Positions 10,014-27,734 of a stretch of DNA of 64,000 nucleotides are shown one piece after another. The notes under the pieces are model-generated. The model had not been told where the DNA came from and searched no databases. It saw only the letters and a list, made by a program, of their open reading frames with translations. The position numbers and the translations under genes were made by a program. Each line of letters opens with the position of its first letter. The first letter of the stretch is position 1. Source of the DNA: Rhizobiales bacterium 62-17 (lineage in GTDB: Bacteria; Pseudomonadota; Alphaproteobacteria; Rhizobiales; Beijerinckiaceae); contig MKVW01000003.1 in assembly GCA_001898965.1 (NCBI GenBank), positions 41,373 to 105,372 on the forward strand, in the 5' to 3' direction.

Positions 10014-10898
10014 ATGCCTGGCCAGCGCCTCGCGCCTTGGGTTATCGATCTTCCGAACGATCTGACAGTGGAACAAGGGTTGCAGCTTGCGCGCGACCGC
10101 ATCGCCTGGCGCGCGGCCGGGCGGCCCGACCCCGCCGACATGGATGAATGGTCGGATGATGATCAAATCGATTTCTATGTGGCAGGCCGTCACACGCCGG
10201 ATACGCTCGATCTCAACGCGCTGAAGCTGCGCACCATTCCCGAAGAGATCGCGACGCAAGAGGGGCTGGACTATCTCTTTCTCATGGGCAACCGCATCGA
10301 AACCATTCCGGCTGCCTTTGCGCAGACGTTTCGTTGCCTCAGCCTGCATCTCTTCGGCAATCCGTTGCGCAGTGTTCCCGCCGCGCTTTTTCATATGCAG
10401 GGCCTGACCGATCTGTATCTCGGGCGCAGCGCCTTGGTGGATTTGCCGCATCTCGATCGTCCGGCAGTCCATCTCAAAATTCTCGGGCTCGATCGCACCG
10501 AATGGTTGGATATTCCCGACGGATTTTTGCGCCAGTTTCCCAATCTGCGCACGCTCCTGCTGAACACTTCCTTCCGCGATGCGATCCCGCCCGATGTCTT
10601 CGCGCTGTCGGAGCTGATCCAGCTCGATTTCGAAGACAATCCGCTTGAAGTGCTGCCGTCGGAAATCAGTCAATTGCGCAAACTGATGATCCTCAATCTC
10701 ACGAACTGCCAGTTGAAGAGCCTGCCGAAAAGTCTCGGCTCGCTGACGGTCCTGGAGGAGAAAGCGCGCGGCGGTCCCTTCGGCCTGCGGATCGGGGGCA
10801 ATCCGTTCAAGGATAAAGAGCTGCGCCGCATCGCCAAACTGAAGAACCCGCAGATGACGATTCAAGCCCTGGAATGGGCGCGGGCTAACGGCGATTAA
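10014..10898 (+). CDS. Leucine-rich repeat protein, cytosolic
   Basis: 294 residues, no signal peptide or membrane segment. After an N-terminal region of about 60 residues rich in Asp and Arg, six to seven repeats of about 23 residues run to about 250, with units such as LDLNALKLRTIPEEI, LFLMGNRIETIPAAF and LDFEDNPLEVLPSEI. The consensus LxxLxLxxNxLxxLP is the bacterial SDS22/plant-like type. No ubiquitin-ligase (NEL) or kinase domain is attached. The likely role is protein binding, with unknown partner. The stop codon overlaps the convergent MFS gene by four bases. Confidence 0.75.
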   Translation: MPGQRLAPWVIDLPNDLTVEQGLQLARDRIAWRAAGRPDPADMDEWSDDDQIDFYVAGRHTPDTLDLNALKLRTIPEEIATQEGLDYLFLMGNRIETIPAAFAQTFRCLSLHLFGNPLRSVPAALFHMQGLTDLYLGRSALVDLPHLDRPAVHLKILGLDRTEWLDIPDGFLRQFPNLRTLLLNTSFRDAIPPDVFALSELIQLDFEDNPLEVLPSEISQLRKLMILNLTNCQLKSLPKSLGSLTVLEEKARGGPFGLRIGGNPFKDKELRRIAKLKNPQMTIQALEWARANGD

Positions 10899-12094
10899 GC
10901 TTTCGCGCGTTCCCGCATCCGCAGGATGAAGGGGATCGAGCCAAAAAACAGGCAGAGCGCGGCGCCGACGCCGGTGACGATGATCATCGGCTTCAAAGTG
11001 CCGTCGGCCATGGTGCCGTAGATCTGCGTGAAGATAGCGCCGAGAAAACTCTGCGTGAAAATCGCGACGCCGGCGGCTGTGCCGGCCAGGCGCGGCACGA
11101 TCTGCATGGCGGCGCTCTGCGCATAGGGCATGGCGATGCCCTGGGCGAAGGGATTGAAGAAGCCGGGCAGGAAAATTGCCAGCGGATGCAGGTAGCCCAG
11201 CATCAGCAACGAGAGAATGGCGACGACGGAGGCCGTCAGGATCAGCGAGCCGGCGAGCACCATGATTTCGTGGGGTGCGCGGTTGCCGATGCGGCTGGAA
11301 ATGAAATTGCCGCAGAAGAAGCCCAAGGGGAAGAGGAAGAAATACAGGCCGAACTCGGTCGAGGGCCGGTGCAGCATGTCTTTCATCACATAGGCGGAGG
11401 CGGCGGAAAGGGAAAAGAAGACGGCGGTGCTGAAGCCCGGCTGCAGCACATAGGCGATGAAGCGTGGGTGGGCGAACAGTTCGCGATAATTGCCGAGCAT
11501 GCTTTGCCCGGCTTCCAGTTTCACGCCCGGCCGCGTTTCCGGCACGAAGAAATAAGTGCCGAGCATGATGATGGCGCCGGAGGCGAAAGAGAAGATCATC
11601 ACGGCGCGCCAGGTGAAATGATCGAGCAGCAGACCTGCCACGGTCGGCGAGACCATCGGGCCTAAAGTGTAGAACATGGTGAGATAGCTGATCACCTTGA
11701 CCAGTTTCTCGGGGCCATAGGCATCCCGCGCGATGGCGCGCACCAGGGTGGTGCCGCAGCCGGCGCCGATCGCCTGGACGACGCGGGCAACGATCAGGGT
11801 GGTGATGGAATCGGCCAGCATGCCGAGCAGGCTGCCGAGGAGAAAGAGAGCCAGCCCGGAGAGCAGCACCGGCCGGCGGCCGTAACGGTCGGCCAGCGCG
11901 CCATAGACCAGATTGGCGAAAGCCATCACCAAGAGTGGCAGGCTGAAGCTGATTTGCGCCAGGGCGTCGGAAATGCCGAAGGCGCTCTTCAGGACCGGGG
12001 TGACCGGCAGGAAAAGGTGGATGGCGAAGGGCGTCAGCAGGCCGATGGAGGCAAGCGCCAGCGCAAATATTCGACCCGGTTCAAATCCCATCAT
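10895..12094 (-). CDS. MFS efflux transporter, Bcr/CflA type
   Basis: 399 residues with about 12 membrane segments. The first half contains the MFS loop motif GALADRYGRRPVLL, and ARVVQAIGAGCGTTLVRAIARDAYG, typical of the Bcr/CflA drug-resistance branch. These pumps export diverse small molecules (bicyclomycin, chloramphenicol-like compounds) by proton antiport; the natural substrate here is unknown. It reads away from the nrdAB regulatory region, so 12095-12230 may hold promoters for both directions. Confidence 0.85.
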   Translation of the reverse strand: MMGFEPGRIFALALASIGLLTPFAIHLFLPVTPVLKSAFGISDALAQISFSLPLLVMAFANLVYGALADRYGRRPVLLSGLALFLLGSLLGMLADSITTLIVARVVQAIGAGCGTTLVRAIARDAYGPEKLVKVISYLTMFYTLGPMVSPTVAGLLLDHFTWRAVMIFSFASGAIIMLGTYFFVPETRPGVKLEAGQSMLGNYRELFAHPRFIAYVLQPGFSTAVFFSLSAASAYVMKDMLHRPSTEFGLYFFLFPLGFFCGNFISSRIGNRAPHEIMVLAGSLILTASVVAILSLLMLGYLHPLAIFLPGFFNPFAQGIAMPYAQSAAMQIVPRLAGTAAGVAIFTQSFLGAIFTQIYGTMADGTLKPMIIVTGVGAALCLFFGSIPFILRMRERAKA

Positions 12095-12162: not shown

Positions 12163-12178
12163 CACCAATATTTTGTGT
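12163..12178 (+). promoter_or_regulatory. NrdR-box-like palindrome, upstream copy
   Basis: The 16 bases CACCAATATTTTGTGT fit the NrdR operator shape as I recall it (ACAC-wATATwTw-GTGT) at nearly every position. NrdR is the repressor of ribonucleotide reductase genes. The site lies upstream of the nrdAB leader, 55 bp centre to centre from a second copy at 12218-12233. The usual spacing of paired boxes is about 31 bp, so the arrangement is unusual. Confidence 0.55.
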
Positions 12179-12217
12179 CAAGACGCCAACCATTCGTTGA
12201 CAATCTTAGCCTTATAA

Positions 12218-12233
12218 ACACAACATATGGTGT
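12218..12233 (+). promoter_or_regulatory. NrdR-box-like palindrome, downstream copy
   Basis: ACACAACATATGGTGT is a palindrome with a central ATAT matching the NrdR box. It overlaps the first bases of the cobalamin riboswitch, so the transcription start is probably in or near it. TTGACA at 12197 and TATAAA at 12213 are present but too closely spaced (10 bases) to call as one promoter. Confidence 0.55.
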
Positions 12234-12401
12234 TCACGGTCCGCAGATTCGTCTGCGGTGAAAAGGGAACCCGGTGTGAATCCGGGGCTGCCCCCGCAGC
12301 TGTAAGTGGTGAAGCTTCGTTCGACTATGCCACTGACGCCAAAAGGCGTTGGGAAGGCCGAAGGAAGCAGTGACCCACGAGCCAGAAGACCTGCCGGGAA
12401 C
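12231..12401 (+). promoter_or_regulatory. Cobalamin (B12) riboswitch
   Basis: The aptamer core is unmistakable: GGGAACCCGGTGTGAATCCGG, then CTGCCCCCGCAGCTGTAAG, a CCACTG segment, GGGAAGGCCG, and the B12 box AGCCAGAAGACCTGCC at 12380-12395. The outer stem pairs GTTC near 12232 with GGAAC near 12397. It precedes nrdA by about 118 bases. Known systems of this kind shut off the B12-independent ribonucleotide reductase when adenosylcobalamin is present. I could not identify the expression platform; no clear terminator with a T-run is seen before the nrdA start, so translational control is more likely. Confidence 0.93.
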
Positions 12402-12519
12402 ATGGATCGACCACGGGCGGGGTGCCGCGTTGGCCGTTACGAAGTGCCGAAGGCCTAAAGGTCTCCTCGGTGCGTCGTCGCGCCAGCGTTCATCCCAGAT
12501 CGAACAGCGGGATTTTCGC

Positions 12520-14451
12520 ATGGGGCAAGCAGCATTCGACTTCGACAAACACGGCCATCTGGTTCCGCTCCCGGAGCCCGTTCAGCGCACCATCCTGCGC
12601 GAGACCGTGCGTACGGTTGAGCGTCCGCGTGAACTGCATGCCCCGCCGCCATATCCGCTGGCGCCGAAGCCGAAGCCCGCGGACCTCGCGCTCGATCGTT
12701 CGCGAGACGATCTGCTGACCGCTTTCGGCAAGGCGACCCTCGACGACCGCTATTTGATGCCGGGCGAGAGCTATCAGGACATGTTCGCCCGCGTCTCCTG
12801 TGCCTACGCCGACGATGTCGCCCATGCGCAGCGTCTCTATGATGCTATGTCGCGTCTGTGGTTCATGCCCTCGACGCCGATCCTGTCGAATGGCGGCACC
12901 ACCCGCGGCCTGCCGATTTCCTGCTTCCTCAACACCGTTCCCGACTCGCTCGATGGCATCGTCGCCACCTGGAATGAGAACGTGGCGCTGGCTTCGAACG
13001 GCGGCGGCATCGGCACCTATTGGGGCCAGGTGCGCTCGATCGGCGAACCGGTGAAGGGCAATGGCGCCACCTCGGGCATCATTCCGTTCATCCATGTGAT
13101 GGACGGTCTCACCTTGGCGATCAGCCAGGGGTCGCTGCGGCGCGGTTCGGCCGCCGTCTATCTCGACATCCACCATCCGGAGATCGAGGAATTTCTCGAA
13201 ATCCGCAAATCCTCCGGCGACTTCAATCGCAAGGGGCTCAATCTTCATCACGGCATCAATGTTACCGACGAGTTCATGGAAGCGGTGCAGGCCGGTGCCA
13301 AATTCGCGTTGAAGAGCCCGAAGGACGGCAAGGTGATGCGCCATGTGGATGCGCGCCAGCTCTGGCAGCGCATTCTCGAAACGCGCATGCAGACGGGTGA
13401 GCCCTATCTGTTGTTCATCGACGCGGTGAACCGCGCCATGCCGAAACATCAGCGCGATCTCGGCCTGAAAGTCTCGACATCCAATCTGTGCAGTGAGATC
13501 ACGCTGCCGACGGGCCGGGACCATAACGGCGAGGATCGCACGGCGGTGTGCTGCCTGGCTTCGCTCAACATCGAGACCTGGGACCAATGGGGCGACGATC
13601 CGGGTTTGGTCGAAGACGTGCTGCGCATGCTCGACAATGTGCTGACCTCGTTCATCGAAAGCGCCCCCGACAGCATGTCGCGGGCCCGCTATTCGGCCTT
13701 GCGCGAGCGCTCCGTCGGCCTTGGCGTCATGGGCTTCCACTCCTTCCTGCAGTCGCGGCGTATTCCGATGGAGAGCGCGCTCGCCAAGTCATGGAACCTG
13801 CGCATCTTCAAGAAAATTCGCCGCGAGGCGGATTCCGCTTCGGTGCTTCTGGCCAACGAGCGTGGCGCTTGCCCGGACGCGCAGGAGCGCGGCATGCGCG
13901 CACGCTTCAGCCACAAGATCGCGATCGCGCCGACGGCCTCGATCAGCATCATCGCCGGCGGCACCAGCGCCTGTATCGAGCCGATCCCGGCCAATATCTA
14001 TATGCACAAGACGCTGTCGGGCGCCTTTGCCGTGCGCAACATTCATCTTGAAAAGCTGTTCGAGGAAAAGGGCGTTAACACCACCGACACCTGGCAGTCG
14101 ATCGTCGCGCAAGAAGGTTCGGTGCAGCATCTCGACTTCCTGACCGAGGATGAAAAAGCGGTGTTCCGCACGGCCTTCGAGATCGATCAACGCTGGGTCG
14201 TCGATCTGGCCGCCGATCGCGCGCCCTATGTCTGTCAGAGCCAGTCTATCAATCTTTATCTGCCGGCCGATATCGATAAATGGGACCTGCACATGCTGCA
14301 CTGGACGGCGTGGAAGCGTGGCATGAAGAGCCTGTATTACTGCCGCTCGAAGTCGATCAGCCGCGCCGCGTTTGCCGGCGATGGTCAGCAGAAGGCTGCG
14401 TTCACCACCTCCGCCAGAACCGACTACGAGGAGTGCCTAGCATGTCAGTGA
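12520..14451 (+). CDS. nrdA: Class Ia ribonucleoside-diphosphate reductase, alpha subunit
   Basis: 643 residues from the ATG at 12520; the upstream frame is open but runs through the riboswitch. It makes dNDPs from NDPs together with NrdB. Key residues are Cys135 (GLPISC), Cys324 in SNLCSEI (thiyl radical position, with Asn322 and Glu326), Cys344/345 (TAVCCLASLN), and the C-terminal pair Cys639 and Cys642 in ECLACQ. The N-terminal 50 residues are proline rich and show no ATP-cone, so overall activity inhibition by dATP is probably missing. It is shorter than the roughly 760-residue enterobacterial enzyme. The stop overlaps the nrdB start by 10 bases. Confidence 0.93.
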   Translation: MGQAAFDFDKHGHLVPLPEPVQRTILRETVRTVERPRELHAPPPYPLAPKPKPADLALDRSRDDLLTAFGKATLDDRYLMPGESYQDMFARVSCAYADDVAHAQRLYDAMSRLWFMPSTPILSNGGTTRGLPISCFLNTVPDSLDGIVATWNENVALASNGGGIGTYWGQVRSIGEPVKGNGATSGIIPFIHVMDGLTLAISQGSLRRGSAAVYLDIHHPEIEEFLEIRKSSGDFNRKGLNLHHGINVTDEFMEAVQAGAKFALKSPKDGKVMRHVDARQLWQRILETRMQTGEPYLLFIDAVNRAMPKHQRDLGLKVSTSNLCSEITLPTGRDHNGEDRTAVCCLASLNIETWDQWGDDPGLVEDVLRMLDNVLTSFIESAPDSMSRARYSALRERSVGLGVMGFHSFLQSRRIPMESALAKSWNLRIFKKIRREADSASVLLANERGACPDAQERGMRARFSHKIAIAPTASISIIAGGTSACIEPIPANIYMHKTLSGAFAVRNIHLEKLFEEKGVNTTDTWQSIVAQEGSVQHLDFLTEDEKAVFRTAFEIDQRWVVDLAADRAPYVCQSQSINLYLPADIDKWDLHMLHWTAWKRGMKSLYYCRSKSISRAAFAGDGQQKAAFTTSARTDYEECLACQ

Positions 14452-15560
14452 TCGATCTTGCACCCCGTCTGCTCGATCTCGGCAAGACCGACCCGCGCGA
14501 CCTGATCGGCACCGGCCAGGTCGGCCTGCTGACGGCGACCGGCACCTATAATGTCGATCGTTATCCTTGGGCCTATGAGTTCTGGAAGCGCCAGCAGCAG
14601 ACCCATTGGATGGGCGAGGAAGTGCCTTTGGGCGCCGACATCAAGGATTGGGCTTCCGACCGGGTGACGGAAGGCGAGCGCAATCTGCTGACGCAGATTT
14701 TCCGCTTCTTCACCCAATCGGACGTGGAGGTCGGCGACAATTATCTGAAGCGCTACATCCCGATCTTCCAGCCGCTGGAAGTGCAAATGATGATGGCGGC
14801 CTTCTCCAACATGGAGACCGTGCATATCGACGCTTATGCGCTGCTCTTGAAGACGCTGGGCATGCCGAACACCGAATTCGCTGCCTTCCGCGACTATGCG
14901 GCGATGCGCGACAAGGCCGACTACATGCACACGTTCGGCGTCGGCACCGTGTCGGACGTGGCGCGTACGCTTGCCATGTTCGGAGCGTTCACCGAGGGCA
15001 TGGCGCTGTTCGCCAGTTTCGCCATGCTGCTCAACTTTCCGCGCCACAACAAGATGAATGGCATGGGCCAGATCGTCAGTTGGTCAGTGCGTGACGAGAG
15101 CTTGCACTGCGAAGGCGTGATCAAGCTCTATCACGAATGGAATCGCGAAACCGGTGCGGTGACGCCGGCCGTGCGCGACGACATTGTCGATGTGGCGCGC
15201 ACCATGGTCGGGCTTGAAGAGCGCTTCATCGATCTCGCTTTCGGTCTCGGCGACATCGATGGCATGACCCCGGAAGACATCAAATCCTACGTGCGCTACA
15301 TCGCCGACTGGCGGTTGTCGCAACTGCACCTGCCCGGCGTCTACGGTTATTACACTGAGACGGCCACCGGCCATAAGCAGATCAAGCCGCATCCGCTGCC
15401 CTGGCTCGTCGAAAGCTTGAACGGCGTCGAGCACGCCAATTTCTTCGAACAGCGGGCGACCGAATATTCGAAGGGCGCGACGCGCGGTGCCTGGGACGGC
15501 GAAGAGGGCGTGTGGGCGGCCTTCGATCAGCAGGTCAAGCGCGGCGAGGCGGCCCATTAG
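14442..15560 (+). CDS. nrdB: Class Ia ribonucleoside-diphosphate reductase, beta (radical) subunit
   Basis: 372 residues. The diiron site is complete: Asp94, Glu125 and His128 (NMETVHIDAY), Glu185 (FTEGMALF), Glu219 and His222 (RDESLHCEG). Tyr132 sits where the radical tyrosine belongs, which argues for a tyrosyl-radical enzyme and against the tyrosine-less class Ic type. The ATG at 14442 lies inside the last codons of nrdA, so translation is coupled. A strong terminator follows at 15585. No ATP-cone is seen at its N-terminus either. Confidence 0.93.
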   Translation: MSVIDLAPRLLDLGKTDPRDLIGTGQVGLLTATGTYNVDRYPWAYEFWKRQQQTHWMGEEVPLGADIKDWASDRVTEGERNLLTQIFRFFTQSDVEVGDNYLKRYIPIFQPLEVQMMMAAFSNMETVHIDAYALLLKTLGMPNTEFAAFRDYAAMRDKADYMHTFGVGTVSDVARTLAMFGAFTEGMALFASFAMLLNFPRHNKMNGMGQIVSWSVRDESLHCEGVIKLYHEWNRETGAVTPAVRDDIVDVARTMVGLEERFIDLAFGLGDIDGMTPEDIKSYVRYIADWRLSQLHLPGVYGYYTETATGHKQIKPHPLPWLVESLNGVEHANFFEQRATEYSKGATRGAWDGEEGVWAAFDQQVKRGEAAH

Positions 15561-16879: not shown

Positions 16880-17270
16880 AGATGGCTGCTCCAGGCCCCG
16901 AGTCGAACGGGAGGAGCCTGTTGTGTACGGGAACCTGATAAAGGAGTCGTAAGCGAACGCGCTACAAAGAGCTGAAAAGACATTAATTTTTGGCGGAGGG
17001 CGGGCAGCAGGTGGCCGGCCGGCGCAATTCCGAGGAGGCCACTCCTGAATCACGACCGGCCGGCCTGCCCCACGGACCCAGGAGATGCGGCGGACCTGAG
17101 CAACCCGTAGGGTGTCTGAAAGCTGCGGCGTCAGACTCATCGCTGACGCAAAGGACGTTATCGTGACAGCCGGGTCGAGCGCAATCGCTCAAAGTTCCCG
17201 TCCTCTGTTAAACGACTGTTTACCTAAAGGAATGCGGTTAACGCTCAAGCCTTGAACTTGAGCTTATCGC
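16880..17270. other. 391-base gap between pleD and the Tad-like gene
   Basis: No gene is supported. The stretch should hold the promoter of the Tad-like gene. It contains a GC-rich palindromic segment (GACCGGCCGGCC near 17058), the inverted repeat TAAAC-N4-GTTTA at 17209-17222, and a hairpin GCTCAAG/CTTGAGC at 17243-17263 just beyond the pleD stop. That hairpin could end pleD transcription, although no T-run follows on the minus strand. Confidence 0.5.
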
Positions 17271-26344: not shown

Positions 26345-26522
26345 GACACCCTCCTCAAGCCATTGTGATCCTAGACTCTCATAGAGGCGACAAGGGGGTC
26401 AATGCGGCTTTTGGCGTGGTTCCGGCTTGCGTAAACCCGGCCCGGTACTACATTTCCAGCACTACATTTTGAGCACGGCCCGCCCTGGGCGGGACCGCCC
26501 GCCGGTTCTATATTCTTCGCTG

Positions 26523-27734
26523 ATGTCCGAGTCCGCCTTCCAGATTCGAATTGCCCGCGCCATGGCCGATATCGATGCGGCCGGCTGGAACGCGTGTGCC
26601 AATCCGCCTGATATCGACTGTGATCCGGCCGATCCGCAGCGGGAACGGTTCAACCCGTTTTTGACCCATGCCTTTCTCAACACGCTGGAGACCTCTGGGT
26701 CGGCGACATCGCGCACCGGCTGGTCGCCGGTGCATCTGGTGGTCGAGGACAAGGGTGGGGCGATCCTGGCTTGCGCGCCTTGCTATCTGAAGACCCATTC
26801 GCAGGGCGAATATGTCTTCGATTATGCCTGGGCCGATGCTTTCGAGCGGGCCGGCGGTCACTATTATCCCAAGCTGCAAGTCAGCGTGCCGTTCACGCCG
26901 GCGCAGGGGCGACGTCTGCTCGTGGCGCCAGGCACCAATGTGGCGGCAGCGCAAGCGGCGCTGGTCGAAGGGTTTCGGGCTTTGCAGGCGCGCACGGGCG
27001 CTTCCTCGACCCACATCACCTTTCCGTTGAAGCAGGAGTGGGACGCGCTCGGGCAGAGCGGTTTTCTGCGCCGCACGGGCAAGCAGTTCCATTTCTTCAA
27101 TCGCGGCTACGATGATTTCGATGGATTTCTGGCGGATCTCGCTTCGCGCAAGCGCAAGAACATTCGCAAGGAGAGGGTGGAAGCCCTGGCGCATGGCATC
27201 GAGATCGAATGGGTGACGGGGCGTGACATCACCGAAGCCCATTGGGATGCCTTCTTCGCTTTCTACATGGACACCGGCTCGCGCAAATGGGGCCGGCCTT
27301 ATCTGACGCGCAGCTATTATTCGCTGGTCGGCGAGGCGATGGCGGATCGGATCTTGCTGGTGATGGCCAAGCGTGAGGGGCGCTATATTGCTGGCGCGAT
27401 CAACTTCATCGGCGATGACGCGCTTTATGGCCGCAACTGGGGCGCGATCGAAGAGCATCCCTTCCTACATTTCGAGGTCTGCTACTATCAGGCGATCGAA
27501 TTCGCCATCGCACGCAAGCTGTCGCGTGTTGAGGCCGGCGCACAGGGCGAACATAAGCTGGCGCGTGGTTATGGGCCGGTCGAGACCTATTCGCTGCATA
27601 TGTTCGAGGATCCACGGCTGGCCCGGGCGGTGGACGGCTTCCTGCAGCAAGAACGGGAAGCGATCAGCCAATCGATCGAAATCTATGGCGAGCACGTGCC
27701 GTTTCGCCGCGATCTGGAGCGGGAACTGGAGTGA
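26523..27734 (+). CDS. FemAB-like / GNAT-fold protein (DUF482)
   Basis: 403 residues from the ATG at 26523. It belongs to the family often labelled peptidoglycan-biosynthesis-like (DUF482): FNPFLTHAFLNTLE, LKTHSQGEYVFDYAWADAFE, YYPKLQVSVPFTP, then FYMDTGSRKWGRPYLTRSYY and the C-terminal EAGAQGEHKLARGYGP. The fold is a doubled acetyltransferase as in FemX. Members probably transfer an acyl or aminoacyl group, but no reaction is proven. It is cytosolic. Confidence 0.85.
   Translation: MSESAFQIRIARAMADIDAAGWNACANPPDIDCDPADPQRERFNPFLTHAFLNTLETSGSATSRTGWSPVHLVVEDKGGAILACAPCYLKTHSQGEYVFDYAWADAFERAGGHYYPKLQVSVPFTPAQGRRLLVAPGTNVAAAQAALVEGFRALQARTGASSTHITFPLKQEWDALGQSGFLRRTGKQFHFFNRGYDDFDGFLADLASRKRKNIRKERVEALAHGIEIEWVTGRDITEAHWDAFFAFYMDTGSRKWGRPYLTRSYYSLVGEAMADRILLVMAKREGRYIAGAINFIGDDALYGRNWGAIEEHPFLHFEVCYYQAIEFAIARKLSRVEAGAQGEHKLARGYGPVETYSLHMFEDPRLARAVDGFLQQEREAISQSIEIYGEHVPFRRDLERELE

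Follow-up and report, generated by a model that had tools for sequence, protein, structure and literature searches.

Putative NrdR and cobalamin riboswitch control of nrdAB in a Rhizobiales bacterium, with a second NrdR box apparently nested in the riboswitch P2 arm of related loci

In Propionibacterium (Cutibacterium) acnes, a single nrd-box lies on the nrdAB promoter together with a cobalamin riboswitch, and nrdJ is under NrdR (PMC3848588). The B12 riboswitch of Streptomyces nrdABS dates from 2006 and silences the B12-free enzyme (Borovok 2006, as cited in PMC5962746). NrdR boxes occur at both nrd operons of Streptomyces, and the NrdR-bound nrdAB fragment of S. coelicolor has two boxes in the ordinary layout (PMC9110341). 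At E. coli nrdAB, which has no riboswitch, the accepted upstream box was found to be irrelevant, and the true partner of the promoter box is downstream, at 15 bp (PMC12176259). Four tested NrdRs bound box pairs with spacers of 14–17 and 24–27 bp, which correspond to whole turns between the box centres, and bound far worse elsewhere within 12–27 bp; high-affinity binding in E. coli requires two boxes (PMC12051234).

The nrdAB locus analyzed here lies in a 64-kb stretch of DNA (G000:C3:41373-105372, hereafter the window) from a 5.66-Mb genome that is 99% complete and, judging by its relatives, alphaproteobacterial (Table 1). It resembles that of P. acnes in its class I nrdAB genes, a putative NrdR box at the predicted promoter, a leader with a B12 riboswitch, and the presence of nrdJ and nrdR in the genome. 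It differs in that the organism belongs to another phylum, the window carries a second, upstream box, and nrdR is apart from nrdJ, whereas in P. acnes it is in the nrdJ operon. As in Streptomyces, the riboswitch precedes the B12-free enzyme and NrdR boxes are found at both nrd operons, but only one box of the window is conserved. E. coli offers a close parallel in the downstream position of the promoter box's partner, except that in the window's relatives this partner is inside the aptamer, and the window has lost it. A B12-free backup reductase under NrdR and a riboswitch is therefore well supported but already known from P. acnes and Streptomyces, and the window locus alone is of a known type. 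What appears to be new is the family-level layout with an NrdR box in P2, one half of which the window's locus seems to have lost.

Table 1. Features of the nrdAB region (window coordinates)
Feature	Position	Strand	Remarks
Bcr/CflA-type transporter gene	10895-12094	-	divergent neighbour of nrdAB
NrdR-like box 1, CACCAATATTTTGTGT	12163-12178	.	16.0 bits, rank 3 of ~64,000 window positions (nrdJ-derived matrix)
Weak half-site for NrdR, fused to the -35, CAACCATTCGTTGACA	12187-12202	+	stands 31 bp before box 2 (exact) and may be its partner
Predicted -35, TTGACA	12197-12202	+	aligns with CTTGAC conserved across nrdAB relatives
NrdR box 2 (putative), ACACAACATATGGTGT	12218-12233	.	18.8 bits, rank 2 of ~64,000 window positions
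Cobalamin riboswitch aptamer (RF00174)	12220-12412	+	148.7 bits, E 1e-37, full model 1-189
Predicted -10, CAACAT	12221-12226	+	18-bp spacer; aligns with CAAGAT/CTATAT-like elements of relatives
P2 hairpin of aptamer, CCGCAGATTCGTCTGCGG	12241-12258	+	short; lacks the NrdR box present there in most relatives
nrdA	12520-14451	+	class I ribonucleotide reductase alpha; PRK09102, 1009.7 bits
nrdB	14442-15560	+	class I ribonucleotide reductase beta; PRK09614, 510.7 bits

The riboswitch described in the first-pass annotation was recovered on the plus strand over the full length of RF00174, although the limits given there (12231-12401) cover only its core. Its score against a gathering threshold of 31.5 bits places it in the family by sequence and structure. 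The gene context also fits, with the aptamer upstream of nrdAB in an NrdJ-encoding genome, where B12 makes NrdAB dispensable. From this arrangement the riboswitch would be expected to turn nrdAB off when B12 is available. An E. coli-type terminator scan found no intrinsic terminator on the plus strand, and folding gave no distinctive expression platform (z = -1.5 and -0.6), the leader being hardly better than shuffled sequences (z = -1.5). The B12-box strand GCUGCCCCCGC (~12287-12297) is complementary to AUGGGGCAAGCAGC in the nrdA start region (12520-12534), and the two pair in the predicted leader fold; this may be a coding coincidence. No ATP-cone domain was found in NrdA by Pfam search.

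NrdR-like sites were scored with a 16-bp symmetric matrix derived from 14 box-A sites that precede nrdJ in the genus, with no nrdAB sequence included. The two palindromes that the first-pass annotation had called NrdR-like were located correctly and took ranks 2 and 3 in the window under this nrdJ-only matrix. Both also pass the published core pattern (16-bp palindrome, conserved C and G; that of Shahid et al. for GTDB, PMC12051234), and the genome contains no exact match to ACACNANATNTNGTGT other than box 2. Although an E. coli-type promoter scan found no promoter, the elements aligned with those of relatives predict a transcription start at ~12230-12236, so that box 2 covers the predicted -10 and start and reaches into the 5′ end of the riboswitch.

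Box 2 is widely conserved. With 59 loci lined up on the beginning of the riboswitch, both CTTGAC and a -10 element resembling the box appeared at fixed places, and the box positions C4 (56/59), A6 (56/59), T9 (58/59), T11 (56/59) and G13 (54/59) were kept. The promoter box scored at p<1e-3 in 46 of 60 loci. In the closest relative (G022, NrdA 95% identical) it is retained as ACACAATATATGGTGT with 17.1 bits. This conservation indicates an NrdR site over the predicted -10 and start, and supports putative NrdR control through box 2; part of it is promoter conservation, given the overlap with the predicted -10.

The window shares its promoter layout, promoter box and aptamer with other alphaproteobacterial nrdAB loci and with those of Wenzhouxiangella (L013-L091), but most of these loci have a second NrdR box in P2, which the window's genus does not. 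When 42 offsets were compared, the best second 16-mer followed the promoter box at a distance of 30-33 bp, and so fell within the P2 arm, in 51 of 60 nrdAB loci (for example, L066, L074, L085 and L055). After dereplication at 75%, the same offsets were best in 38 of 45, while a mirrored-matrix control gave 5/60. Because the loci are related, binomial values for this enrichment are far too small. The mirrored control and the spread of the nested box over Oceanibaculum, Thalassobaculum, Nitrospirillum, Magnetospirillum, Pseudolabrys, Bradyrhizobium and Wenzhouxiangella nevertheless argue against an artefact of shared ancestry alone. By the published pattern on its own, 21/60 loci contained a pair spaced 30-33 bp, against a mean of 0.1 in shuffles. 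Strong P2-arm boxes occurred in 34/60 nrdAB riboswitches but in 1/45 other alphaproteobacterial B12 riboswitches (Fisher 6e-10), a control set from which 11 unanchorable riboswitches were left out and in which the anchoring of some others is approximate. Likewise, the C4-A6-T9 pattern was seen in 18/56 versus 0/45 in a fixed-offset column count from GGGAA, a count that loses sharpness because P2 comes in two lengths. Another 13 loci differed from those of the first set but were only partly independent, since some are closely related to it; the best offset was 30-33 bp in 11 of them and 5 reached p<1e-3. Aptamer background was considered as the source of a peak at +30 in the shift control and rejected, as inspection showed NrdR boxes.

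The P2 box occurs in two fold contexts, either in the L2 loop and the 3′ strand of P2 or, as in Pseudolabrys, in the apical hairpin of a longer P2. Its distance to the promoter box is 30–34 bp (SD 1.0), but that to the aptamer GGGAA is bimodal (SD 5.1). The fixed distance to the promoter box together with the variable distance to GGGAA points to a DNA operator at three helix turns rather than an RNA motif. A box pair at 31 bp is also present at some nrdAB loci in which no riboswitch was detected, indicating that the operator can exist independently of the riboswitch. With an aptamer that begins at the transcription start, the second box simply happens to fall in P2.

In the window no P2 box was found (best downstream offset 23, score -7.7), and the same holds for G022, L079 (G002), L184 (G008) and L058, where P2 is short. 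The genus appears to be without the nested half, most simply by loss. Taken together, we consider it likely that, in Alphaproteobacteria and the gammaproteobacterial Wenzhouxiangella, the downstream half of the nrdAB NrdR operator is nested in the aptamer P2 arm, so that the same nucleotides act in the DNA as operator for a dATP-sensing repressor and in the RNA as part of the structure that senses B12; that the window's genus lost this nested half; and that in the present species box 1 may have arisen upstream to replace it. A literature search, with most subscription papers beyond its reach, turned up no earlier description of a riboswitch containing an NrdR box. An operator inside an aptamer, if true, would be an overlapping code in which protein-DNA binding, helical spacing and RNA folding are selected at once. 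The nested layout suggests a place to search for a further NrdR box in seemingly single-box nrdAB promoters, and the window offers a natural test of NrdR binding after loss of the partner box. As a separate observation, the gammaproteobacterial nrdAB genes of Wenzhouxiangella and relatives (L083-L090) are 72–77% identical to those of the window and have the same riboswitch and NrdR boxes, a likeness suggesting that the operon was transferred together with its regulatory region.

The candidates for the partner of box 2 in the window are box 1, with a strong sequence but an odd distance and no conservation, the half-site over the -35, with the right distance and conservation in G022 but a weak sequence, or nothing. 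Binding of NrdR to box 2 and this half-site, at the canonical 31 bp and as at nrdJ of the genus, is a tentative possibility. The half-site retains C4, A6, T11 and G13 and, like nrdJ box B, is merged with the -35; its stretch is identical in G022 (CAACCATTCGTTGACAATCTT is unchanged there) while the flank diverges, and L079 has a comparable half-site at 32 bp. However, it scores -11.8 bits with the symmetric matrix; the 4.05 obtained with the nrdJ box-B matrix includes the -35 bases that the two have in common, and the left half of the site is unexceptional, with 3% of sites scoring equally well. The conservation may reflect the -35 alone, and L058 and L184 are without the half-site.

The first-pass annotation had instead paired boxes 1 and 2, either as an NrdR site of unusual geometry or as boxes acting separately, and this we regard as rather unlikely. 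Box 1 fits the core pattern and, as the third best NrdR-like site in 64 kb, lies near the second best; the spacing of 55 bp start to start that had been given was confirmed. This spacing, equal to a 39-bp spacer or 5.2 turns, fits none at which NrdR has been tested (39 bp is outside the range covered in PMC12051234), and whole-helix-turn pairing (14-17 or 24-27 bp spacer) was found in the window only for the weak half-site at 31 bp. In G022, box 1 is broken by a 1-bp deletion and substitutions that lower its score from 16.0 to -3.7 bits, and it is absent at the other nrdAB loci of the genus. A 55-bp pair was found in 1/60 loci, namely the window itself, while most related loci have the partner downstream, inside the riboswitch. 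Box 1 was thus rejected as a generally conserved partner; as far as seen it is private to this species, and its candidate function is uncertain. It is improbable that box 2 is mainly -10 and riboswitch P1 sequence and that NrdR control of nrdAB has been gone from the genus since the loss of the P2 box: box 2 does overlap the predicted -10 and the aptamer 5′ end, and high-affinity binding needs two boxes (PMC12051234) in a genus without a P2 box, but it matches a consensus from nrdJ sites located upstream of the -35, is kept in G022, extends its symmetry past the -10 and occurs nowhere else in the genome.

The proposal of dual control implied that nrdR and a B12-dependent reductase would be found elsewhere in the genome, and both were present. 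nrdR (C3:253575; TIGR00244, 171.8 bits, over the cut-off) lies downstream of a glyA-like gene, and NrdJ (C3:387962-391630, minus strand) is of the B12-dependent type (PRK07562, 2279 bits), so that the genome encodes both this enzyme and class I NrdAB. CbiC/CobH, which is needed for the corrin ring, is absent from this genome (a single marker, in a genome 99% complete) and present in only 2/25 genus genomes. The two other B12 riboswitches of the genome precede metE and a TonB-B12-like (btuB-like) receptor. The organism probably cannot make its own B12, and most likely imports it and keeps the B12-free MetE and NrdAB as backups. A close nrdA was found in only 4/25 genus genomes, whereas nearly all have nrdJ and most others nrdJ alone; nrdAB is an accessory backup of few species in the genus. 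The genus (G001-G024 with the source genome, G000) thus seems B12-dependent with sporadic nrdAB. Upstream of nrdJ, most genus genomes examined have a pair of boxes at a distance of 31-32 bp, and the second box of the pair runs into a CTTGACG -35; those of the source genome are CCACTACATTTTGGGT and CCACTAATCCTTGACG, 32 bp apart. The boxes at nrdJ suggest, from their layout, that NrdR determines how much reductase is made and B12 determines which of the two it is.

These results make it likely that nrdAB encodes a B12-free reserve reductase that is controlled twice, by NrdR at the DNA level and by the cobalamin riboswitch at the RNA level. The riboswitch, the boxes, nrdR, nrdJ, the lack of CbiC/CobH and the conserved box 2 are read directly from the sequences. 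NrdR loaded with dATP and ATP would bind box 2 over the -10 and start of the predicted promoter and block transcription; through its canonical box pair before nrdJ it would also set the total enzyme supply. The leader would fold as a cobalamin riboswitch from about the first nucleotide and shut off nrdAB when B12 is present, so that B12 would decide which reductase is made. With the usual second box (30-33 bp downstream, in P2) missing, NrdR might hold on in the window through box 1 or the -35 half-site. For a probable B12 non-maker, this scheme would explain a switch of DNA precursor supply between the B12-dependent and the B12-free enzyme. Of the control scheme in the first-pass annotation, the B12 logic agrees with the absence of CbiC/CobH and with the other riboswitches at metE and the btuB-like receptor, and NrdR control via box 2 agrees with its conservation; the two-box geometry is not supported.

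Several further sites were observed. The best NrdR-matrix match of the whole window, GCACTACATTTTGAGC (26459-26474, 19.7 bits), stands just before an uncharacterised ORF (26427-27734, plus strand); ACTACATTT, which repeats it partially in direct orientation, lies 17 bp upstream. Nothing seen at this site connects it with nucleotide metabolism, and it may be due to chance. An EcpR1 (Atu_C6) small RNA (RF02500, 96.9 bits) matched window positions 17008-17115 on the minus strand, within a Tad-like ORF, near its 5′ end when the ORF is taken from the most distal start. A Mn2+ riboswitch (yybP-ykoY, 63.7 bits; L268 887-990, minus strand) was detected near an nrdAB locus without a detected B12 riboswitch. 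Before the glyA-like gene upstream of nrdR are two NrdR-like sites, ACACCATGTATGGTGG and ACACTATATCTGGACG, ~123 bp apart (L007 529-544 and 650-665; G000:C3 ~252026 and ~252149), which could reflect autoregulation; the second, ACACTATATCTGGACG, is also found in G022 (L170).
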